This document shows positions 5,579 through 19,067 of a stretch of DNA of 39,638 nucleotides, piece by piece. Source of the DNA: Chloroflexota bacterium (GTDB lineage: Bacteria > Chloroflexota > Limnocylindria > P2-11E); contig VBFI01000057.1 of NCBI GenBank assembly GCA_005889275.1, positions 1 through 39,638 on the forward strand. Direction: 5' to 3'. Below the pieces are notes generated by a model. It was not told the origin of the DNA. It did no database searches and worked only from the letters and a program-made list of their open reading frames with translations. Position 1 is the first letter of the stretch; every line of letters starts with the position of its first letter. The translations under genes and the position numbers were made by a program.

Positions 5579-6455
5579 GCGCTGGTCGCTAGATCCACTT
5601 GAACTTGGTGGCGATGTCCTGGTGGATCTGCTGGTACTTCAGGATGAATTGACGGAACTCGAGCCCCGACTTGAAGTCAGGCTGCAACGCGTTCTTGTCC
5701 ATGAAGTCCTTCCACTCCTGCGAGTCGTAGACCTTCTTGAACACGTCGATCCAGAACTGCTGCTGGCTCTGCGAGAGACCGGGGGGAGCCATGATCGCGC
5801 GCATGATGAAGTAATCGTCGATCGCGATGCCCTGCGACGTGCATGTCGCCAGGCCCGAGTACACGCCCGTCTTCGGGCTCTCGGGTGTGAATGCACAGAG
5901 CGGCTTGAGCTGTTTCGTGCTGCCCTGGTAGAGCGGGAGACCCTCGCTCGGGTTGTTCACCGTCGCGACGACGCCTCCCTGGTGACCCGCGAGCGCCGCC
6001 GCGACGGTCGCGCCCGAGGTCTGGCTCAGGTAGGTGAAGGGCTTCGTCTTCATCGTGTCCTCGATCCGACGGAAGAGCGCCTCGTCCTCCTGCTTCGCGC
6101 CGGTTCCGGCGACCGTCAGCGAATCCTTCTTCGCGGCGTCGACGAAGTCCTGCGCTGTCTTCCACGGGCTGTCGTTGTTGACCCAGAGGAAGAACGGGTC
6201 GAGGGCGAGGTTCGCGACCGGCGTGAAGTCGGTCGCTTTGTACGGAAGCTTCTGCGTGATGATGGTCGTGAAGAAGCTGTTGAGGGTGATCATGATGTAG
6301 TGCATGTCACCCTTGTGGTCGTTGACGTAGGTGAACGCGACCGCGCCGGAGCCGCCCTCTTTGTTCAGCGGGGTGACCGGCTGCGGCGAGAGCTTGTTGT
6401 TCTCGATGATCGTCGCCATCGCGCGTGCGTACAGATCGGAGCCGCCGCCCGGTGC
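5448..6455. repeat. Direct tandem repeat, unit 1 (1,008 bp)
   Basis: This block is repeated directly and immediately at 6456-7463, with an offset of exactly 1,008 bases. It holds the first part of tctB, the tctB-tctC gap and most of tctC. I saw no difference between the copies in any stretch compared, and derived peptides on both strands are identical. The homology ends left at 5448 (ggg here, c at 5447 against c at 6455 in a different context) and right at 7465, with only two G residues shared at the junctions. Such tiny microhomology fits a very recent duplication or an assembly fault. Confidence 0.93.
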
Positions 6456-6457
6456 GG
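5589..6457 (-). pseudogene. tctC, 5'-truncated duplicate copy
   Basis: This is a second copy of the tctC coding region, identical to the full gene at 6597-7607 from the APGGGSDLY motif to the C-terminus (FKWI). It lacks roughly the first 50 codons, including the signal peptide, lipobox and first strand of the mature domain. At the junction (about 6457) the upstream sequence becomes a fragment of tctB in another frame, so no fused long protein is made. The first in-frame ATG is at 6417-6419 and would give 276 residues with no export signal, so a working binding protein is unlikely. It lies between full-length tctC and tctB on the minus strand. Confidence 0.85.
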
Positions 6458-7463
6458 GTACCAGCGGGCGCCGACGTCGCCGGGCGCGGTTCCCGCCGAC
6501 GGATTGAACGCGGCTCGCGAGTCGAACATGGCGACGGCGGCGATCAGGATGATCGCCGCCGCCGTTCCTACCTGGTAGGGCCGCACGCGCTGGTCGCTAG
6601 ATCCACTTGAACTTGGTGGCGATGTCCTGGTGGATCTGCTGGTACTTCAGGATGAATTGACGGAACTCGAGCCCCGACTTGAAGTCAGGCTGCAACGCGT
6701 TCTTGTCCATGAAGTCCTTCCACTCCTGCGAGTCGTAGACCTTCTTGAACACGTCGATCCAGAACTGCTGCTGGCTCTGCGAGAGACCGGGGGGAGCCAT
6801 GATCGCGCGCATGATGAAGTAATCGTCGATCGCGATGCCCTGCGACGTGCATGTCGCCAGGCCCGAGTACACGCCCGTCTTCGGGCTCTCGGGTGTGAAT
6901 GCACAGAGCGGCTTGAGCTGTTTCGTGCTGCCCTGGTAGAGCGGGAGACCCTCGCTCGGGTTGTTCACCGTCGCGACGACGCCTCCCTGGTGACCCGCGA
7001 GCGCCGCCGCGACGGTCGCGCCCGAGGTCTGGCTCAGGTAGGTGAAGGGCTTCGTCTTCATCGTGTCCTCGATCCGACGGAAGAGCGCCTCGTCCTCCTG
7101 CTTCGCGCCGGTTCCGGCGACCGTCAGCGAATCCTTCTTCGCGGCGTCGACGAAGTCCTGCGCTGTCTTCCACGGGCTGTCGTTGTTGACCCAGAGGAAG
7201 AACGGGTCGAGGGCGAGGTTCGCGACCGGCGTGAAGTCGGTCGCTTTGTACGGAAGCTTCTGCGTGATGATGGTCGTGAAGAAGCTGTTGAGGGTGATCA
7301 TGATGTAGTGCATGTCACCCTTGTGGTCGTTGACGTAGGTGAACGCGACCGCGCCGGAGCCGCCCTCTTTGTTCAGCGGGGTGACCGGCTGCGGCGAGAG
7401 CTTGTTGTTCTCGATGATCGTCGCCATCGCGCGTGCGTACAGATCGGAGCCGCCGCCCGGTGC
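6456..7463. repeat. Direct tandem repeat, unit 2 (1,008 bp)
   Basis: The second copy of the block at 5448-6455, directly abutting it. In this copy the tctC part continues upstream into the complete gene, while the tctB part ends after about 43 codons at the junction near 6457. The unit length is divisible by three, but the junction joins tctB and tctC in different frames. Confidence 0.93.
6459..6586 (-). pseudogene. tctB, 5' fragment in the duplicated block
   Basis: This fragment repeats the first 43 or so codons of tctB (beginning MRPYQVGTAA and ending GARWYP) from the same GTG start. It then crosses the duplication junction and reads out of frame through the tctC copy, with a stop after about 30 more codons (ORF end 6365). 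It would encode one membrane helix plus a nonsense tail, so it is almost certainly not functional. Confidence 0.85.
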
Positions 7464-7607
7464 GGTGCTGATCACGAACTCGACCGGGTGAGTGGGTAGT
7501 GCGGCCACCGGCGAGCCAGTCGGACTGGCTGGCGGGGCGTTGCTGGTCGCGCAGGCGGTGAGAGTGACGAGCGCTGCTGCAAGGATCGCTAACGTCGAAC
7601 GCCGCAT
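6597..7607 (-). CDS. tctC: Tct-type substrate-binding lipoprotein (TctC/Bug family)
   Basis: The extracytoplasmic binding protein of the Tct transporter (336 residues). It begins MRRSTLAILAAALVTLTACA, a signal peptide with lipobox LTAC, so the mature protein should be a membrane-anchored lipoprotein as expected in an organism without a typical periplasm. The mature domain has the Bug-family pattern PVEFVISTAPGGGSDLYAR, and later WVNNDSPWKTAQDFVDAAKK and the GATVAAALAGHQ segment. I prefer the ATG at 7605-7607 over GTG at 7617-7619, because GGAGG sits 11 bases before the ATG and directly abuts the GTG. It is the first gene of the tctCBA operon and is divergent from ilvE. The ligand is unknown. 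Confidence 0.93.
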   Translation of the reverse strand: MRRSTLAILAAALVTLTACATSNAPPASPTGSPVAALPTHPVEFVISTAPGGGSDLYARAMATIIENNKLSPQPVTPLNKEGGSGAVAFTYVNDHKGDMHYIMITLNSFFTTIITQKLPYKATDFTPVANLALDPFFLWVNNDSPWKTAQDFVDAAKKDSLTVAGTGAKQEDEALFRRIEDTMKTKPFTYLSQTSGATVAAALAGHQGGVVATVNNPSEGLPLYQGSTKQLKPLCAFTPESPKTGVYSGLATCTSQGIAIDDYFIMRAIMAPPGLSQSQQQFWIDVFKKVYDSQEWKDFMDKNALQPDFKSGLEFRQFILKYQQIHQDIATKFKWI

Positions 7608-8764: not shown

Positions 8765-8988
8765 CCGCGAAGAAGAGACCGAGCGCCGACAACCCCATCC
8801 GTCGGATCGCGCGCGCGATCGACGCCGCCGGCCGGGATGCCGACCTCGCTCGAAGGAGTGCCAGCGACCCGGAGTTCCGTCGCCGTATCCAAGCCGATCG
8901 TCGCGGGACCCTTTCGTCGTTCCGGACGGTCCGTCACGCGCTGGCTGACCGCGAGAAGATCGAGAAGGCGAAAAAGAAGAAGAGCTAG
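8761..8988 (+). CDS. Small basic hypothetical protein
   Basis: A 75-residue protein starting with GTG at 8761-8763, which overlaps the ilvE stop (GTGA). The overlap points to translational coupling with ilvE. It is rich in Arg, Ala and Asp, with a lysine-rich C-terminus (EKIEKAKKKKS), and is probably helical and soluble. I recognise no domain; the central stretch SDPEFRRRIQADRRGTLSSF has an amphipathic look. Its stop lies 4 bp from the stop of the convergent LCP gene. Support for its being real is the coupling, the open frame and the codon pattern; function is unknown. Confidence 0.6.
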   Translation: MTAKKRPSADNPIRRIARAIDAAGRDADLARRSASDPEFRRRIQADRRGTLSSFRTVRHALADREKIEKAKKKKS

Positions 8989-8992
8989 CGCG

Positions 8993-10618
8993 TCAGCGCG
9001 CGAGGTCGGTCGCGAGGCCGCGGAAATCCGATCCGACGCGGACGACGATGTCGGCCGACGTTTGCTCGCCCGAAGGCAGCGCGTCGACCGGGAGACCGCC
9101 GAGCTGTGAGGCGAGCGCGTTGGCCGTGTAGCGCTTCGCTCCGTTGCGGACAAGCACCGCGGAGCGCGCGGATGATCCGTTCGTGACGATCGAGACGCTG
9201 AACGCCCGCTCCGCGAGCCGGTCCGCGACGCTTTGGGCCATCCCGGCGCGCCCTCCGCTGTTGCGGATCTCGATCGATGCTCCCTCCGCCTTGACCTGCG
9301 GGTCGTAGAAGATCGTCGCCGCGAACTCGCGCACCTTGGCCGCGTCGGGCAGCAGGAAGAAGCCGTTCTCGCCGCCCGAGTAGGTCAGCTCGCAATGCGG
9401 GTAGTCCCCGCCGCAGGGGTAGAGGACATCGCTGCGTATCGAGTCGCCCGGGATGCCCGACCCGAACCGCGCGAGGGGGATCACGTTGGCCGGGTCGAAG
9501 TTCGTCTGGACCGCGCTGCCGACGTGATCGAGGATCCCGGGAAGCCCGCGGAGCATGTCGTTCTCGGTGAGCTTGATACGCAGCGCCCCGATGACCTGCT
9601 GCTGCCGCGCGGCGCGGCTGTAGTCGTTGCTATCGTGCCGGGAGCGCGCGTACCGGAGCGCGACGTCGCCGTCCATCACCTGCGGTCCGGCGGCGATGTC
9701 GATCCGCTCGACACCGTAGTCCGCGGTGGGGTAGTACTCGTCGCGAAGCGGACGCTTCACGTCCACGACCACCCCGCCCACGGTGTTGACGATCTTCGTG
9801 AACGCATCGAAGTCGACGAGCGCATACGAATTGATCCGGATCCCGAGCAGGTCCTCGACCACCTTTCGCGCGAGGTCCGGCCCGCCGAGTGCGTATGCCG
9901 CGTTGATCTTGTCGACGAGGACACCGGGCCGGTTGATATAGATGTCGCGCGGCAACGAGAGCATCGCCGCCGTCCTGTTCATCGGATCGAGGCTGAGGAC
10001 GATCATCGTGTCGGTGTTCTGAGTGGTCGGGTCGCCCGCCCGCGAGTCGATGCCCAGGAGCAGGACGTTGAGGCGTTCCTGCCCCGTCCACGCCGCCGGC
10101 GCGGACTCCTGACCCGAGCCGGGTCCGGTGAGGGGCTGCTGCGCGAGCGGCGCGAAGACCTTGGCGAAGAATCCGGCCCACGGCGCCGATCCGCGGTACG
10201 CGGTGGCATAGAAGCCGACGAGCGACAGGCACACCACTCCGAGCAACGCGTAGTCGACGAGGCGGCGGCCGCCGAGCGATCCCACGTCGCGCAGCTTCCC
10301 CGCGAAGGCGTCGGCGACGGTGAAGAGGTGATACGTGAAGAACGCGCCGGCCACTAGGAAGGTGAAGGCCGGCGCGTTTCGGAGCACGAGCGAGGTGAGG
10401 GGATCGGCGATCGCGATGAACGCCCCGCTGAGCAGGACGACAAAGATCGGGACGAGGATCATGAGGATCCCCCTGACCCATCGGCCGTGATACATCTGTC
10501 CAAGACCAGGGAGAAGGCCCGAGAGCACGGCGGCGAAGCCCGGAGAGCCGCTCACCCGAGACCTGCGGAGCATGCGGGCGCGAGGCGTGCTGCCCTGCGG
10601 TGCTCCCCGATTCGACAT
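8993..10618 (-). CDS. LytR-CpsA-Psr (LCP) family protein with N-terminal membrane domain
   Basis: A 541-residue membrane protein. Residues about 26-140 form three to four helices beginning with the motif LSGLLPGLGQMYHGRWVRG. The LCP domain follows (about 184-345), with NVLLLGIDSR, the catalytic-site stretch AMLSLPRDIYI, KINAAYALGG and LRYARSRHDSNDYSRAARQQ. These Arg and Asp residues bind pyrophosphate and Mg in known LCP enzymes. The C-terminal part (about 430-535) resembles the LytR_C domain. LCP enzymes transfer glycopolymers from lipid carriers to the cell wall or make related phosphodiester links. The PGLGQ-type N-terminal membrane domain is a form I associate with Chloroflexota. The ATG start is at 10616-10618; the gene is convergent with ilvE and the small gene after it. 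Confidence 0.92.
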   Translation of the reverse strand: MSNRGAPQGSTPRARMLRRSRVSGSPGFAAVLSGLLPGLGQMYHGRWVRGILMILVPIFVVLLSGAFIAIADPLTSLVLRNAPAFTFLVAGAFFTYHLFTVADAFAGKLRDVGSLGGRRLVDYALLGVVCLSLVGFYATAYRGSAPWAGFFAKVFAPLAQQPLTGPGSGQESAPAAWTGQERLNVLLLGIDSRAGDPTTQNTDTMIVLSLDPMNRTAAMLSLPRDIYINRPGVLVDKINAAYALGGPDLARKVVEDLLGIRINSYALVDFDAFTKIVNTVGGVVVDVKRPLRDEYYPTADYGVERIDIAAGPQVMDGDVALRYARSRHDSNDYSRAARQQQVIGALRIKLTENDMLRGLPGILDHVGSAVQTNFDPANVIPLARFGSGIPGDSIRSDVLYPCGGDYPHCELTYSGGENGFFLLPDAAKVREFAATIFYDPQVKAEGASIEIRNSGGRAGMAQSVADRLAERAFSVSIVTNGSSARSAVLVRNGAKRYTANALASQLGGLPVDALPSGEQTSADIVVRVGSDFRGLATDLAR

Positions 10619-11911: not shown

Positions 11912-13002
11912 GGCAGACCTACCGCCTCACCTCGATGCTGTTGCGCGCGTACGTCCGTGACCGGATCGCCCTCTTCTTCAGTCTCATCGTCCCGCTCATG
12001 CTCATGGTGATCTTCGGGTACTTGAACCTCGGCGATTTCGGCCGCGTCTCCATTGCCGTCGACGACCAGGCGAAGAACGCCGCCAGCCAGCAGCTCACCG
12101 GGGTGCTCCGCGGCATCGGCACGCTGCAGGTCGCCGAGCTCTCGACGGACGAGGCGCTGGGCAAATTGCGACGGACTGAGCTCGACATGCTCGTCGTGAT
12201 CCCAGGCGACTTCACGATCGCGCCGGCGCGCCCGGGTCAGGCGGTGCCGCAGCTCATCGTCTACGGGGACGACGCGCGGCCGCAGCAGGTCGCGGTGGGC
12301 CGTTCGATCATCACCGCGGTCATCGACCGCCTGTCGTTCGCGGTGACCCAGACGGCGCCGGTCGTGGGAGTGAAGGACGAGTCGGTACAGGGCGTCCGGC
12401 TGCGCTATGTGGACTTTCTCGTCCCCGGGATCCTCGGCGTGAACATCATGCAGCTGGCGGTCTTCTCGGTCGCGTTCGCGCTCGTGGCCGACAAGCAGCG
12501 CGGCGTGCTCCGCCGGATCATGGCCACCCCCGTCCGCATCACCAACCTCCTGACCGCTCACGTCCTGACGCGGCTCGTCATCGCCACCGGCCAGGTCGCG
12601 GTGCTGCTCCTCGTCGCCCTTCTGCTCTTCAACGTCACGATCGTCGGTGGGCTCGTTCCGCTCGTGGCCGTCGCGCTCCTCGGGACGATCCTCTTCCTCA
12701 CGATCGGCTTCGCCCTCGCCGGCTGGGCGCAGACCGAGAACCAGGTGCCGGCGATCGCGCAGCTCATCACGCTCCCGCAGTTCTTCTTCTCCGGTGTGTT
12801 CTTCTCGAAGAACGCCGCGCCGGAGGCGATCCGGCCGATCACGAACCTGCTCCCGTTGACGTTCCTGAACGACGCGCTTCGCGAGATCAGCGTGCAAGGC
12901 GCGACGCTCTGGGACGTGCGCACGCAGATCCTCGGGCTCGTCGTCTGGATCGTCCTGGGATTCCTGCTGGCGGTCCGCCTGTTCCGGTTCGAGCGCTTCT
13001 AG
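11908..13002 (+). CDS. ABC-2 type transporter permease
   Basis: A 364-residue membrane partner of the preceding ATPase. One helix lies near the N-terminus (about 22-42), followed by an extracellular domain of about 130 residues, then five helices from about residue 170 to the end. This is the ABC2_membrane_3 layout. The conserved stretch PQFFFSGVFFSKNAAPEAIRPI is the usual ABC-2 motif before the last helices. The start ATG overlaps the ATPase stop. It ends with TAG at 13000-13002, overlapping the stop of the convergent Nudix gene by two bases (CTAG). Confidence 0.92.
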   Translation: MRQTYRLTSMLLRAYVRDRIALFFSLIVPLMLMVIFGYLNLGDFGRVSIAVDDQAKNAASQQLTGVLRGIGTLQVAELSTDEALGKLRRTELDMLVVIPGDFTIAPARPGQAVPQLIVYGDDARPQQVAVGRSIITAVIDRLSFAVTQTAPVVGVKDESVQGVRLRYVDFLVPGILGVNIMQLAVFSVAFALVADKQRGVLRRIMATPVRITNLLTAHVLTRLVIATGQVAVLLLVALLLFNVTIVGGLVPLVAVALLGTILFLTIGFALAGWAQTENQVPAIAQLITLPQFFFSGVFFSKNAAPEAIRPITNLLPLTFLNDALREISVQGATLWDVRTQILGLVVWIVLGFLLAVRLFRFERF

Positions 13003-13598
13003 GGCCGGCTCTCCAGCGCGTCCGCGACCGCCCGATGGACGACGGCGCGGAAGCGACCCCAGTCGGCCCAGTCGCCACCGATCACGTCCGCGGGCGCGCT
13101 CGCGATCCGCTCCAGGCGGTCGGCGACCGAGCGCAGCTCGGACGGAGCGATCTCGATGTACTCCTCTATCTGCTCATGCTCGTCGCGGGCGCCGAGGGTG
13201 CCGCCGGTCTCGTCGAGGAGGAACGCGAACGTATGGAAGATCGGCTCACCGTCGGGCGCAGACACCGGCCGGTACGCGATCTGGGCCAGGAAGCGGGGGA
13301 CCTCGACGCGGAGCCCGGTCTCCTCGGCGGTCTCTCTACGAAGCGCATCGAGGATCGGCTCGCCGTGATCGATGCCCCCCGTCGGCAGCCGGTAGGCCCC
13401 GCGCGGGTAGAAGGTCTTTATAGATAGGAGGAGCTTGCCGCTCGGACGGCGCAGGACCATGCACACCTCGCCCGCGCGGTCCGGCCGGCGGATGGGGTCG
13501 AAGAAGGCGTCGTGGATCGTCGCGTCGATCCGCAGCGGCTCGCCGAAACGCCGCGAGAGCGCGGCGATCTCGGCGCGCTGTGAAGGCAGGAGCTCCAC
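12999..13598 (-). CDS. NUDIX hydrolase
   Basis: A 199-residue cytoplasmic hydrolase of nucleoside-diphosphate-linked compounds. The Nudix box is complete: GGIDHGEPILDALRRETAEE followed by TGL (about residues 92-114), with the catalytic Glu residues in RETAEE. A strand before it (AGEVCMVLRRPSGKLLLSIKT) is the normal Nudix beta entry. The start is GTG at 13596-13598, nine bases after the stop of the lipoprotein gene on the same strand. The exact substrate is not known; no specific subfamily motif is seen. Confidence 0.9.
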   Translation of the reverse strand: MELLPSQRAEIAALSRRFGEPLRIDATIHDAFFDPIRRPDRAGEVCMVLRRPSGKLLLSIKTFYPRGAYRLPTGGIDHGEPILDALRRETAEETGLRVEVPRFLAQIAYRPVSAPDGEPIFHTFAFLLDETGGTLGARDEHEQIEEYIEIAPSELRSVADRLERIASAPADVIGGDWADWGRFRAVVHRAVADALESRP

Positions 13599-13607
13599 GC
13601 CGCAACG

Positions 13608-14459
13608 CTAGCGTTCGATGACCGAGCGAACCTTTCCGTCGTCGGCGCCGAGTCGAACTTCGATCTCGTGCGGCGCGGGTCCGGTCTTCTGCGCGGCGAT
13701 GATGACCCACGCGTCAGCATCGAGCCGCGCGCTGCCGACGATCGCGCCGACCGGCACGCCCGCGCGTGTGGTGGGTTCGGGCCGGCCCTGCAGCCACCGC
13801 GCGAGGCGCCCATCGTCGTAGGCGCGATCGATCGCGACGCCCGCGGATAGGTAAGGATCGCCGCGCCCTCCGACGCGCAGCGGCGATGTCGCTTGCACCA
13901 CGTTCGTCGCGGCTCCTTCCGCGAGCGTGAACGAGCCCACGACGTCGAGCGGCCCTGTCGGCGCGGGGCGTGTGCCCGCAAAGCCGCCGTTGACCATGCC
14001 ATCCCACACCCATCGCGTCCGAAGCGTGGTTTTGGCGGCCATCGTCTCGACGAATTCGGCGGCCGGGCACGCGACCCCTCCCCAGATCTTTGCGAGGTTC
14101 CAGTGCTCCTCGACGACGAAGTTCGCGTACGTCTCGCCATTCCTCAGCGCCCAGGACTTGAAGCCGCCCAGCGCCCCCGACCATTGTCTCCCGGCGTCGG
14201 GCTGCGCCGGGCGGGCCAGCACGTTCCCGGGAACCTTGCAGCCCGATCCCCGCCATTTCACGTCGTAGTCGTTCGTGTTCTCGATGACGAGTGTCGCCCA
14301 GAGAAGATCGCCAGGCATGATCTCGCCATGGTCGAGCTCCAAGGTGAGGCGCACGCCGTCTTTCGTTACAGAGGCCGGCGTCGGAGATCCGGCGACCGGG
14401 CCGGCGCAGCCGAGGGCGACAAGGACAGACGCAACAAGGATCGCTGCCCTCCGGATCAC
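13608..14459 (-). CDS. Hypothetical lipoprotein
   Basis: A 283-residue predicted secreted lipoprotein of unknown function. From GTG at 14457-14459 it begins VIRRAAILVASVLVALGCAG, a signal peptide with lipobox ALGC. The mature part has a beta-rich N-terminal region (TKDGVRLTLELDHGEIMPGDLLWATLVIENTN...) that looks like an immunoglobulin-like fold of the kind often seen in BsuPI or protease-inhibitor-like proteins, and then a variable tail. I reject the longer frame to 14567, because its first 36 codons are the complement of the T-box core at 14516-14557. It probably forms an operon with the Nudix gene. The start site is not certain; weak Shine-Dalgarno. Confidence 0.7.
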   Translation of the reverse strand: MIRRAAILVASVLVALGCAGPVAGSPTPASVTKDGVRLTLELDHGEIMPGDLLWATLVIENTNDYDVKWRGSGCKVPGNVLARPAQPDAGRQWSGALGGFKSWALRNGETYANFVVEEHWNLAKIWGGVACPAAEFVETMAAKTTLRTRWVWDGMVNGGFAGTRPAPTGPLDVVGSFTLAEGAATNVVQATSPLRVGGRGDPYLSAGVAIDRAYDDGRLARWLQGRPEPTTRAGVPVGAIVGSARLDADAWVIIAAQKTGPAPHEIEVRLGADDGKVRSVIER

Positions 14460-14515
14460 ACACTCAATAACCTCGAACACGGGGAAGGGTTCGACCACGC
14501 GGGAAAACCGCGCAA

Positions 14516-14557
14516 TGAGTGGGGCGCGAGGCTCGCGCCAACTCGGGTGGTACCGCG
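14516..14557 (+). promoter_or_regulatory. Orphan T-box core (stem III plus antiterminator motif)
   Basis: About 42 bases (GAGTGGGGCGCGAGGCTCGC, CAACTCGGG, then TGGTACCGCG at 14548-14557) match the ileS T-box core at 15977-16017 almost base for base, with one inserted G. It includes the GGCGCG/CGCGCC hairpin and the T-box bulge that binds an uncharged tRNA 3' end. Unlike the ileS copy, it is not followed by a terminator or by a plus-strand gene: the minus-strand GGDEF gene ends at 14564, 7 bp on. Small hairpins upstream (near 14474-14493 and 14499-14512) might be other stems. It is either a relic or an unexplained element. Confidence 0.7.
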
Positions 14558-14563
14558 CGCCGG

Positions 14564-15181
14564 TCATTCACGGTCGTACTTCCGGAGCACGTCTTCGAGA
14601 CCTTCGCGGAGCAGCACGGCTTCTTTGGTCTTCTTGCGCTCGGCAAGCGCCTTGAGGCGCGCCAGCTGCGCGACGCTGTAATAGGAGGACTTCAGCACCA
14701 TGTCCTCGGCCGGTGGCAGACCGACGGCGTTGCCGCCCTGTTCCTTCGCCGCGTAGAGGGCGAGGTCTGCCTTGCGCAGCAGCTGCTCAGCGGTCCTCGC
14801 GTCTCGCGGCGCGTTCGCCACCCCGATCGTCGCCGTCGCCCGGTATCGGGCTGGCACCGCCTTCCGGAGCGAGGCCACGAGCTCGGCGCGGATCCGCTCG
14901 GCGCGCAGGAACGCCGCCTCGAGCGACACGGCCGGCGCGAGAAGCGAGAACTCGTCGCCCCCGATCCGCGCGAACGCCCACCCCTCCTTCTTCGCCGTGG
15001 CGGTGAGCGTTCGCATGGCCGAGGCGATCGCCGCGTCGCCGAGCGCGCGCCCGCCCCGCTCGTTCAGCGTCACCAGATCGTCGAGGTCGACGAGCAGGAT
15101 CGACGCGCCGTTCGCCCCGGTGAGGGCCTTCTCGACCGCCGCGAGGAACTCCGGCTTCGCCACCGCTTTGTTTCCGGCCAT
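14564..15181 (-). CDS. GGDEF-domain protein with C-terminal ribbon-helix-helix tail
   Basis: A 205-residue soluble protein with no membrane segment or sensor domain. Residues 10-150 form a GGDEF domain: the metal-binding Asp lies in ILLVDLDDL (28-36), and the signature RIGGDEF is intact (72-78). There is no RxxD inhibitory site just before it. This suggests diguanylate cyclase activity, making c-di-GMP from GTP. Residues 161-203 (KSSYYSVAQLARLKALAERK, then EAVLLREGLEDVL) match the strand-helix-helix pattern of CopG-type DNA-binding proteins. The fusion is unusual. The start is ATG at 15179-15181, without a Shine-Dalgarno and just after an AT-rich box, so the mRNA may be almost leaderless; GTG a few codons on is an alternative. 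Confidence 0.85.
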   Translation of the reverse strand: MAGNKAVAKPEFLAAVEKALTGANGASILLVDLDDLVTLNERGGRALGDAAIASAMRTLTATAKKEGWAFARIGGDEFSLLAPAVSLEAAFLRAERIRAELVASLRKAVPARYRATATIGVANAPRDARTAEQLLRKADLALYAAKEQGGNAVGLPPAEDMVLKSSYYSVAQLARLKALAERKKTKEAVLLREGLEDVLRKYDRE

Positions 15182-15211
15182 ATATACGGGCAAGATATAT
15201 ATGTGTTGGCA
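15182..15211. promoter_or_regulatory. AT-rich divergent promoter gap (GGDEF / deaminase)
   Basis: The 30 bp between the two diverging starts contain an AT box (ATATATAT, 15195-15202) and another at the left edge (TATATA, 15181-15186), which stand out in this GC-rich sequence. The right-hand box can serve as a -10 in both directions and would give very short or absent leaders on both genes. The two boxes also form a loose inverted pattern, which could be a binding site for the ribbon-helix-helix tail of the GGDEF protein. That last point is inference. Confidence 0.55.
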
Positions 15212-15856
15212 ATGTACGTCAAGAGAGCGCCGGGAAGCCTCGCCGAACCCTGGCGCGTCGCCCTCGCTGAAGCGTGGGACGCGTACGCGGCAGGCACGGT
15301 CCCGGTGGGCGCGGTCGTCGTCGACGTCGCGGGCCGGGTGGTGTGCCGCGGACGGAATCGGGTCCTCGATTCGGCCGTGGCGGGGCAGATTGGCAAGTCC
15401 CGCCTCGCACATGCCGAGGTGAACGCGCTGCTGGGACTCGCCGGGACGACGCTCGACCCGCGGGGGCTCGCCCTGTACACCACGCTCGAGCCCTGCCCCC
15501 TCTGCGTTGGCGCGATCGTGATGGCGAACGTCCGGGCGATCCATTACGCGGCGCGCGAGTCGTTCACCGGGAGCATCGGGCTCCTCGACGCGACCCCGTA
15601 TCTGCGAAGCAAGGCGATCGTCGTGCATCCGCCCGCCGATCCGATGGTCGAGGCGGTGATCACGGCGATGGCGGTCGAGTTCCATCTCCGCGTCGGCGGA
15701 CCGAGGGTGCGGGAGCTCGTCTCCGGCTCGTTCGCGGTCCATCCCGGCGCCGTGCGGCTCGCCGAGCGCCTCGCCGCGGGTGGCGACTGGGAGCGCCTTC
15801 GCCAGATGCCCGCCCAAGAGGGGTTCGCGCATCTGGCCCGAGGACTAGACTCGTAG
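15212..15856 (+). CDS. Nucleoside/cytidine-type deaminase
   Basis: A 214-residue cytoplasmic zinc hydrolase of the CMP/dCMP deaminase fold. The zinc ligands are visible: H67-A-E69 in AHAEVNALL, with E69 the proton shuttle, and PCPLC (94-98) in TTLEPCPLCVGAIVMANV. This pattern is shared by guanine, cytosine and tRNA adenosine (TadA) deaminases. The C-terminal 70 residues are longer than in TadA and do not show a clear known domain, so I do not give a symbol. The start ATG (15212) has no Shine-Dalgarno and lies just after the AT-rich divergent gap. The stop at 15856 directly precedes the ileS leader. Confidence 0.88.
   Translation: MYVKRAPGSLAEPWRVALAEAWDAYAAGTVPVGAVVVDVAGRVVCRGRNRVLDSAVAGQIGKSRLAHAEVNALLGLAGTTLDPRGLALYTTLEPCPLCVGAIVMANVRAIHYAARESFTGSIGLLDATPYLRSKAIVVHPPADPMVEAVITAMAVEFHLRVGGPRVRELVSGSFAVHPGAVRLAERLAAGGDWERLRQMPAQEGFAHLARGLDS
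15846..15851 (+). promoter_or_regulatory. ileS: Possible -10 of the ileS leader
   Basis: TAGACT at 15846-15851 sits just before the T-box leader, and a weak TTCGCG box lies 16 bases upstream (15824-15829). Transcription would start near 15858, giving a leader of about 210 bases. It overlaps the end of the deaminase gene. The match is modest. Confidence 0.35.
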
Positions 15857-15859
15857 GCA

Positions 15860-16060
15860 GAGACGCGTGAGGGGCCATCGACCCCGAGTCGCCGGAAGAA
15901 AGCCGCGGCGCGGCGATTAGACCCGGCCGGAGCGGCACTCCGTTAGCAACCGCGGACGTTGAACACGACGTCGTAGTGAGTGGGCGCGAGGCTCGCGCCA
16001 ACTCGGGTGGTACCGCGGCTTCCGCCGTCCCGAGCGTTCGGGACGGCGTTTTGTTTTGTT
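15860..16060 (+). promoter_or_regulatory. ileS: ileS T-box riboswitch leader
   Basis: The leader has an apparent ultrashort stem I: GGGG (15871-15874) pairs with CCCC (15882-15885), and the loop CCATCGA carries ATC (15877-15879), an isoleucine codon, as specifier. Small hairpins follow, e.g. CGGAG/CTCCG near 15928 and GACGT/ACGTC near 15956. Stem III is GGCGCG/CGCGCC (15983-15999) and the T-box TGGTACCGCG lies at 16008-16017. A strong terminator comes next. Uncharged tRNA-Ile would bind and favour the antiterminator. Ultrashort stem I is known from actinobacterial ileS leaders, where control is usually on translation; here the terminator points to control of transcription. Confidence 0.85.
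16024..16060 (+). terminator. ileS: Rho-independent terminator of the ileS T-box
   Basis: The 10-bp stem GCCGTCCCGA (16024-16033) and TCGGGACGGC (16038-16047) with loop GCGT is followed by GTTTTGTTTTGTT. Its 5' arm follows the T-box directly, the usual arrangement for switching between terminator and antiterminator. The Shine-Dalgarno of ileS (GGAGG, 16061-16065) begins right after the T-tract. Confidence 0.93.
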
Positions 16061-16069
16061 GGAGGCGAC

Positions 16070-19067
16070 GTGGCGAAGGCGAGCGAAAAGGCAGCGGAGC
16101 GGACTCGATTCCGGCCGGTCGGGCCGAAGCTCGACCTGCCCGAGCTCGAGCATCGCGTACTCGACCTCTGGGAGCGCGAGCAGAGCTTCGCTGCGCTCCG
16201 AAAGAAGAATGCCGGCGGCCCGCGGTTCTCCTTCATCGACGGTCCGATCACCGCGAACGTCGAGGCCATGGGCGTCCACAGCATGTGGGCGCGGACCTAC
16301 AAGGACCTGTACCAGCGGTACAAGGCGATGCTCGGCTACGACCAGCGCTACCAGAACGGCTTCGACTGCCAGGGTCTCTGGGTCGAAGTGCAGGTCGAGC
16401 GCGAGCTGAACCTCAACAGCAAGCGGGATATCGAGACGTACGGGATCGCGAAATTCTCCGAGGCTTGTCGCCAGCGCGTGGACCGATCCGCCGTGGCCAT
16501 CACCAAGCACTCGATCCGGATGGGTCAGTGGATGGACTGGGCGAACTCGTACTACACGTACAGCGATCTGAACATCTCGCACATCTGGCACGTGCTGAAG
16601 CTCGTGCACGAGAAGGGCTGGCTCTACAAGGGTCATCGCTCGATGCCCTGGTGCGCGCGGTGTGGCACCGCTTTGTCGCAGCACGAGATGACGATGAGCG
16701 ACAGCTATCGCGAGATGACGCACTTGTCCGTGTATGTCCGATTCCCGATCGAAGGGAAGGAGCGCCAGTCGTTCTTGGTCTGGACGACGACCCCGTGGAC
16801 CCTTCCCGCGAATGTCTCCCTCGCCGTCAACCCCGAGCTCGACTACGTGCGCGCCAAGGTCGGGGACGAGGTGCTCATCGTTTCGCAGGAGACGTTCGAG
16901 CAGGCGAAGTGGCCTGACGCGAAGGTCCTGGAAACGCTCAACCGAGAAGCTTCCGGTCCTCGTGCCCATCGATGAGATGGCGCGCTTCGTCGCCGGGTAC
17001 GGCTGGCTCGAGGGGAAAGAAGCGCGCGACGTCGCACGCGAGATCGCGGACGACCTACAAAGGCGCGGGCTGCTGTTCCGCGCGGCCGACTACACACACC
17101 GCTACCCGGAGTGCTGGCGCTGCCATGAGGAGATCGTCTTCCGCGTGGCCGACGAGTGGTTCATCTCGATGGACGATCTGCGGCCGAAGCTCATCGACGC
17201 GGCGGCCAAGGTCACCTGGCTGCCTCCGGCCGCGGGCCGCCGGATGCAGAACTGGCTCCAGAACATGGGCGACTGGAACATCAGCCGGAAGCGGTACTGG
17301 GGCCTGCCTCTTCCTTTCTATACGTGCGCGAACGGGCATTTCTTCGTGCTCGGCTCGGAAGAGGAGCTTCGCGAGCGGGCGCGGGCCGGCTTGGAGAAGC
17401 TCCGGGAGCTGCACCGGCCGTGGATCGATGACGTGATCGTCCGGTGCCCGGAGTGCGCCGCGGACAGCAAGCGGGTGAAGGAAGTCGGCGACTGCTGGCT
17501 CGACGCCGGCGTCGTTCCCTTCTCCACGCTCGATTGGCTCCACGACCGCGCGTACTGGGAGCAGTGGTTTCCCGCCGACTACATCGTGGAGATGGTCGAG
17601 CAGGTCCGCCTCTGGTTCTACTCGCAGCTCTTCTTCTCGGTCGTTCTCACGGGCGAGGCGCCGTATCGCGTTTGTCAGTCGTTCCAGCCGATGCTCGCCG
17701 CGCCCGGGCAGGAATTCCACAAGTCGGGCGGCAACATGGTCGACAGCTACGAGGCCTGCGAGCTCGTGGGCGCGGACTCACTCCGCTGGTTGTTCGCGAG
17801 GCAGGACCTGCAGGAGATCATGTATTTCGGCTGGGCTCCACTCGAGGAGTTCAAGCGGAAGCTGCTCGTCCTTTGGAACACGTACTCGTTCTTCGTGACG
17901 TACGCGAACCTCGACGACTTCGATCCGACCGAGCGCCCGGTCCCACCGGCGGATCGGCCGCTGATGGATCGCTGGCTCCTCTCGGCGCTCGCGCGGCTGG
18001 TCGCGCAGTCGCGCGCGGCGCTCGACGCCTATGACGCGCGCAGCGCGCTCTTCAGCATCGAGGCCTTCTGGGACGACCTGTCGACGTGGTACCTGCGGCG
18101 GAACCGGGCGCGCTTCTGGAAGGAGCGTTCGCACCGCGATTCGCTCGCCGCATACCAGACGCTCTTCGAGGCGCTGACCACGCTCACCGGGCTGATCGCA
18201 CCGGTCATGCCGTTCCTCGCGGAGGACATGTACCAGGGCCTCGTCCGCGGAGCCGTGCCCCAGGCCGAGGCGTCCGTGCACCACACGGCGTATCCCCTGG
18301 AGCGCCCGGAGCGTCTCGACGAGGACCTCGAGCGGCGGATGCGCGCGGCACGACGCGTCGTGGAGCTCGGCCGCGCCGCGCGTTCGTCGGCGGGTGTGAA
18401 GACGCGGACGCCGCTCGGAAAGCTGATCGTCGTGTTCGACGCGCAGGACCGCGATCGCGGCCAGCTCGACGAGCGCTCGGAGCTCGCCGACATCGTGAAG
18501 GACGAGCTCAACGTGAAGAGCGTCGAGATCCGCGATCGGGCCGAGGGTTTGGTGAAGGAGACCGTGAAGCCGGACCTCAAGGTGCTCGGCCCGAAGCTGG
18601 GCAAGGATCTCCCGCGCGTGCGGCAGGCTCTCGCCGAGGGCCGGTACGAGCGGCGCGATGGCACGATCGCGGTCGAGGGTTTCGTCCTCGCCGACACGGA
18701 GGTCCTCGTCTCGCATGAGGGCGTGGCCGGCCACGCCGTCGCGCGCGACGCGGGCGCAACCGTCGCGCTCGAGACCAAGCTCACCGCCGAGCTCGAGCTC
18801 GAGGGATTGGCTCGCGAGCTCGCGCACCATTTGAACAACATGCGGAAGGAAGCCGGCCTCGAGATCTCCGATCGGATCGCGCTCCGGTACGCGGGTCCGA
18901 TCGCGACCGCGCTCGAGCGGCACCGCGATTTTGTCGCGGAGGAGTCGCTCGCGACGAGCGTGCGGCCCGGGCTCGCCGGGCGCGGCCACGCGTGGCGGGG
19001 GACGTTGAACGGTGTGGCCGGCGAGCTCGAGATCGAAAAGGATCCATCGGCGCGCCCTGCCCGATAG
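16070..19067 (+). pseudogene. ileS: Isoleucyl-tRNA synthetase, frame-broken in the editing domain
   Basis: The gene charges tRNA-Ile. It starts with GTG at 16070, four bases after GGAGG. The first part (about 290 codons) has DGPITANVEAMGVHSMW in place of HIGH, RTYKDLYQRY and NGFDCQGLWVE, and ends its frame with TGA at 16973-16975. The rest continues in the next frame from near 16944: LPVLVPIDE, YPECWRC, the WFISMDDL region, KRYWGLPLPFY, the KMSKS-type HKSGGNMV, a tRNA-binding C-terminus and the end at 19067. At the switch, the part of the editing domain with the GTGIVHxAP motif is missing, so some 80-100 residues seem deleted as well as one base out of phase. An essential gene should not be broken, so an assembly error or a second copy elsewhere is possible. 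Confidence 0.85.

Follow-up and report, generated by a model that had tools for sequence, protein, structure and literature searches.

The window, that is, the whole 39,638-nucleotide stretch of Chloroflexota DNA analysed here, encodes on its minus strand a 205-residue protein that combines a GGDEF domain with a predicted C-terminal ribbon-helix-helix (RHH) tail, which we refer to as GGDEF-RHH. The gene and its annotated neighbours are as follows.

14564-15181, minus strand: GGDEF-RHH gene, 205 amino acids, an open reading frame of 205 codons read from ATG to TGA and supported by orthologs
12999-13598, minus strand: NUDIX hydrolase gene, lying downstream and probably in the same operon in the home family (PF00293, E=1.2e-14)
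15212-15856, plus strand: tadA-like deaminase gene, divergent, its ATG 30 bp from the GGDEF-RHH ATG (PF00383, E=6.4e-17)

In the home family, GGDEF-RHH sits between the NUDIX hydrolase gene and ileS, with tadA intervening before ileS in some genomes. The NUDIX hydrolase is the next downstream gene in most of these loci and is a probable operon partner. Within the window, a 319-residue reading frame (13608-14567), lipoprotein-like and without a Pfam match, overlaps the GGDEF-RHH stop by 4 bases and is found at the same place in one relative only (L124, 47% identity). A 42-bp T-box antiterminator sequence is present in two copies (14517-14558 and 15978-16018, 97.6% identical): the first is an orphan just downstream of GGDEF-RHH, and the second belongs to the leader of ileS (Rfam T-box at 15896-16035, E=6.4e-7). 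GGDEF-RHH and tadA are thus flanked by direct repeats, a possible recombination scar. The ileS gene itself (16070-19067) is split over two overlapping frames (to 16975 and from 16734), and in relatives it forms one open frame of ~1090 codons or more; the split is a frameshift in the contig, possibly a sequencing error. Elsewhere, an 876-bp repeat (5582-6457 and 6590-7465, 100% identity, 1008 bp apart) carries part of a tctC-like substrate-binding protein gene, for which each relative has one match among the matches listed. This repeat is either an assembly artefact or a very recent tandem duplication. A plasmid origin was also considered, and no match was found.

GGDEF-RHH is a real, conserved family. 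The protein is encoded in all 10 same-genus genomes, often with the same gene order; among the genomes compared, which are mostly metagenome assemblies, it is present in several other genera of the home family and was not found in others. The preliminary description had proposed looking for the same two-domain architecture elsewhere, and a profile search across the phylum Chloroflexota recovers full relatives in other families and classes, namely in four families beyond the home family (G440, G200, G274 and G393). A search in the class of G393 adds five further genomes with two-domain relatives, and one in the class of G440 adds no further genome. The genes next to the distant orthologs are unrelated to the home-family neighbours. 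The same description had staked its reading on homologs keeping the tail, and every full-length ortholog recovered has it. A chance reading frame or a misread tail is ruled out by the orthologs and their conservation. In one relative (L133, about 8921-9136), the syntenic position holds a remnant with the tail alone (residues 134-205); it lacks the N-terminal GGDEF part and the AT boxes described below, and is either a decayed or a rearranged copy. Weak tail matches in the class (L153-L161) were set aside, since they proved to be unrelated proteins apart from a separate CopG-like protein (L156) and a decayed copy.

The protein itself is divided as follows, with all features on the minus strand.

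14723-15172, minus strand: GGDEF domain, residues 4-153, lacking an I-site and carrying Gly where PleD has Arg446 (PF00990, E=1.3e-21; residue table)
14948-14968, minus strand: RIGGDEF signature, residues 72-78, of which R72 and GGDEF are invariant in the home family
14567-14701, minus strand: predicted ribbon-helix-helix tail, residues 161-205 (PF12651 above cutoff; conserved across the phylum)
14678-14701, minus strand: predicted DNA-contacting beta strand, residues 161-168 (MVLKSSYY), outer face K164/S166/Y168, inferred from the register of an ungapped alignment
14636-14674, minus strand: tail helix A, residues 170-182 (AlphaFold2)
14570-14626, minus strand: tail helix B, residues 186-204 (AlphaFold2)

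No part of the protein is better conserved than the tail. Over 18 orthologs its columns have a mean entropy of 0.43 bits and those of the GGDEF body 0.95, and 14 of the 51 tail positions are invariant across the phylum; within the genus, the dN of the tail (0.152) is near that of the body (0.175). The profile matches predict an RHH of the PF12651 type, in line with the CopG-type assignment made earlier: residues 171-202 match RHH_3 (PF12651) at 23.3 bits in the whole protein, and the tail alone reaches 26.4 bits (E=6.6e-6), both above the gathering cutoff of 21.6. RHH_3 is likewise above cutoff in four distant orthologs (L168-L171); in the other four home-family members tested it scores below cutoff. 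A profile search of the PDB gives a weak CopG-family best match (7by2, E=0.48), while Foldseek with the isolated tail returns no significant match, a 51-residue monomer being an uninformative query at such a size. In the AlphaFold2 model, helices A and B have the length and turn of an RHH, with three residues between them, and in front of them the strand region (161-168) is unstructured, with low confidence over residues 159-167. Of the strand-helix-helix arrangement that had been expected, the two helices are therefore recovered, and the strand at 161-168 does not form in the monomer. The strand of an RHH forms only in the dimer, so a lone-chain model with an unstructured strand is compatible with this fold, though no proof of it. 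In the phylum-wide tail alignment, Y168 of the strand is invariant, S166 is nearly so, and position 164 is Lys or Arg.

Pfam assigns residues 4-151 of the 205 to PF00990 (E=1.3e-21), and an AlphaFold2 model made with 18 orthologs gives the body a GGDEF fold, whose best Foldseek matches are solved GGDEF structures (TpbB, PleD, GcbC and others). As first described, the RIGGDEF signature (residues 72-78) is intact and the 205-residue protein has no sensor; a REC domain is likewise absent, and the PF00990 match already begins at residue 4. We tabulated the functional residues of 26 orthologs from an alignment to TpbB, using PleD numbering. The equivalents of D327 (metal), N335 and D344 (guanine), E370 and K442 are invariant in 26/26. 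The RxxD I-site, the c-di-GMP inhibitory site that is common but not universal in diguanylate cyclases, is absent from all 26; the window protein reads K..W here, and the home family has an invariant Trp where the I-site Asp would sit.

This pattern bears on whether the domain is an enzyme. Diguanylate cyclases act as dimers, and elsewhere the dimerising of GGDEF domains is the job of REC domains or coiled coils. It is conceivable, if doubtful, that GGDEF-RHH is an active diguanylate cyclase in which the RHH tail both dimerises two GGDEF domains and represses the gene, so that the level of the enzyme would be set by negative feedback. Such an enzyme, lacking an I-site, would need another brake; its D327, N335 and D344, which are reported essential (PMC7288161), are invariant, and the GGDEF motif is intact in 23 of the 26 orthologs. 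However, the remaining three, all distant, read SGDEF, and Arg446, whose side chain touches phosphate (PMC7288161), is kept in distant orthologs and replaced by Gly or Ser throughout the home family (17/17 members), the window protein having Gly. The DxLT region, the N-terminal hook at the start of the domain, is also eroded in the home family, and is kept in the distant class. We dropped the loss of Lys332 as proof of inactivity, because only the main chain of this residue is listed as phosphate-binding (PMC7288161). Taken together, the invariant pocket residues and the losses at Arg446, DxLT and the GGDEF motif suggest that the GTP pocket is under selection everywhere, whereas the full catalytic equipment is not. 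We infer that diguanylate cyclase activity is weak or absent in the home family and, with a selected pocket beside an incomplete catalytic set, we favour nucleotide sensing over efficient c-di-GMP synthesis.

Upstream of the gene, the promoter region contains three elements.

15179-15203, no strand assigned: candidate operator, inverted repeat CATATATA-9-TATATATG, read on the minus strand as the double box TATATC-N9-TATATG, 15 bp apart (sequence search, shuffles and genome scan)
15217-15222, minus strand: -35 element TTGACG of the GGDEF-RHH gene (a TTGAC-type -35 is kept upstream of most orthologs)
15194-15199, minus strand: -10 element TATATC, overlapping box 1 (promoter comparison)

The AT-rich inverted pattern previously noticed beside the start of the gene is an exact repeat, CATATATA at 15179-15186 and TATATATG at 15196-15203, complementary at 8/8 positions with 9 nt between, and the pattern appears in 0/100 shuffles of the window. 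A slightly looser form, ATATATA-N3-14-TATATAT, has a single match in the 2.78 Mb genome, at the GGDEF-RHH promoter. In the home family, two TATATR boxes lie upstream of the gene, 15 bp apart; the distant class has a pair of ACATAT boxes there, at a spacing of 14 bp (18 bp in L169). When 17 home-family genomes were scanned for TATATV-N9-TATATR, the pattern was present in ten, each time only at the GGDEF-RHH promoter; ACATAY-N8-ACATAT was found in six of the nine distant genomes scanned, only at this promoter in five and with one match elsewhere in the sixth. Matches to these promoters are circular, since the box patterns were derived from them, and the informative parts of the search are only the exclusivity, the constant spacing and the shift of the boxes against the promoter. 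The exceptions are three members of genus g1 with a single box (L013, L014 and L016) and L019, whose upstream region is lost or no longer recognisable. The early suggestion that this pattern is a likely target of the protein stands as a candidate, the double box being kept at the same gene in most orthologs and absent at the other genes of those genomes. A wider regulon in the genome of the window was rejected, as CATATATATGTT (with at most one mismatch) and the double-box patterns match the GGDEF-RHH promoter only.

How the boxes lie relative to the promoter differs between lineages. In genus g1, the -10 hexamer is itself box 1, and box 2 is close to the start, extending into the start codon in several genomes. 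This placement would suit an account that we regard as unlikely, in which the tail is a dimerisation module only, the protein is never on DNA, and the AT boxes either belong to the promoter or are bound by a different regulator; some RHH proteins do work mainly in protein contacts. In genus g7, it is box 2 that forms the -10, with box 1 between this hexamer and the -35, and in L193-L196 of the distant class a separate -10 stands upstream of both boxes, which disfavours the boxes as mere ordinary -10 elements. The constant spacing of 14/15 bp, combined with a position that slides against the -35 and -10, resembles a repressor operator and is unlike a promoter element. The restriction of the boxes to one gene and the conservation of K/R164, S166 and Y168 on the predicted DNA face also count against a tail that only dimerises. 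The double AT-box is thus probably the operator of GGDEF-RHH's own gene, for which we propose it as a candidate. A role like that of an RHH antitoxin, inactivating a toxin and repressing the promoter of the pair, is highly improbable: weak matches to Antitox_RHH (PF20605) stay below cutoff, both in the window protein and in the other four home-family members tested, and no conserved small toxin gene adjoins GGDEF-RHH, which is accompanied by the NUDIX hydrolase gene and ileS/tadA in the home family and by unrelated genes outside it.

We consider it probable that GGDEF-RHH is a stand-alone, autoregulatory one-component transcription factor, with the GGDEF domain as its GTP or c-di-GMP ligand domain. 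A GGDEF domain joined to a predicted DNA-binding tail, with the same boxes before its own gene in distant relatives, points to a nucleotide-sensing, self-regulating switch. RHH proteins typically bind repeats as tetramers, and the C-terminal tail would dimerise, probably with two dimers (a tetramer) per operator, and bind the double AT-box in its own promoter. As the double box lies on or right beside the -10/+1 region, the protein, once bound, should keep RNA polymerase away and shut off the promoter, making repression rather than activation the expected outcome. Ligand sensing would fall to the GGDEF body, with GTP or c-di-GMP held by the guanine pocket and the metal site (PleD D327, N335, D344, E370 and K442), and occupancy would alter the packing of the GGDEF pair and hence the grip of the tail on DNA. 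DNA binding, repression and the identity of the ligand are all predictions drawn from sequence features. The same genome encodes GGDEF-EAL, GAF-GGDEF and GGDEF-MshEN proteins, and with other GGDEF, EAL and MshEN proteins in the organism, c-di-GMP is probably available as a signal. In one protein of this genome, with the order GAF-GGDEF-MshEN (L004:940-2247), the MshEN domain that comes after the GGDEF domain may bind c-di-GMP.

Each element of this arrangement has a known counterpart. The CopG, Arc and NikR repressors share a strand-helix-helix fold, autoregulation and repeated short boxes with what the sequence of GGDEF-RHH predicts, but the RHH of GGDEF-RHH is C-terminal, behind a GGDEF domain. 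NikR couples an N-terminal RHH to a metal-binding ACT-like domain. PucR-type regulators such as MabR also unite a GGDEF-fold domain and a DNA-binding domain in one transcription factor, although theirs is a GGDEF-like PF17853 without the signature (HGTWL in MabR) and with a C-terminal HTH (PMC11617747), whereas GGDEF-RHH has a true PF00990 with intact RIGGDEF, an RHH tail and no other domain. Accordingly, Pfam finds no match to GGDEF_2 (PF17853) or the HTH PF13556 in the window protein. As far as the account cited in PMC7288161 goes, the degenerate GGDEF domain of Caulobacter CC3396 is a GTP sensor, a likeness to a GGDEF domain that binds GTP instead of acting as an enzyme; its output is an EAL phosphodiesterase, while that of GGDEF-RHH would be DNA binding.

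The RHH protein CdbA of Myxococcus xanthus is a c-di-GMP receptor that binds its own cdbAB promoter, and on its K8/S10/Y12 strand face DNA and c-di-GMP binding are mutually exclusive (PMC7156744). CdbA thus likewise links c-di-GMP and DNA through an RHH fold, with helix lengths similar to those of the GGDEF-RHH tail, and K8, S10 and Y12 correspond to K164, S166 and Y168 in an ungapped register set by hand. No CdbA chain is among the PDB profile matches of GGDEF-RHH; with a hand-set register and no sequence search joining the two proteins, the correspondence is a lead only. CdbA differs in having no GGDEF domain, in binding a GC-rich consensus genome-wide, and in being an essential nucleoid protein, whereas GGDEF-RHH carries a nucleotide domain and its AT-box seems to be a single site. 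By analogy, one could picture a one-protein c-di-GMP feedback circuit, improbable as we judge it, in which the GGDEF domain would synthesise c-di-GMP only as an RHH-held dimer and the K-x-S-x-Y face would bind either operator DNA or c-di-GMP, so that the enzyme would read its own product and free its own promoter.

The combination in GGDEF-RHH is new, and its elements are of known kinds; no description of the fusion was found in the literature searched, which covers a minority of subscription journals. GGDEF domains are normally enzymes or receptors downstream of sensors, and promoters are reached via separate effectors. If our preferred reading is true, GGDEF-RHH and its operator would make up a minimal transcriptional switch that senses a nucleotide, and a GGDEF fold with its signature intact could serve as the ligand domain of a one-component regulator. 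The family would then offer a simple system in which to look for direct readout of GTP or c-di-GMP at a bacterial promoter.
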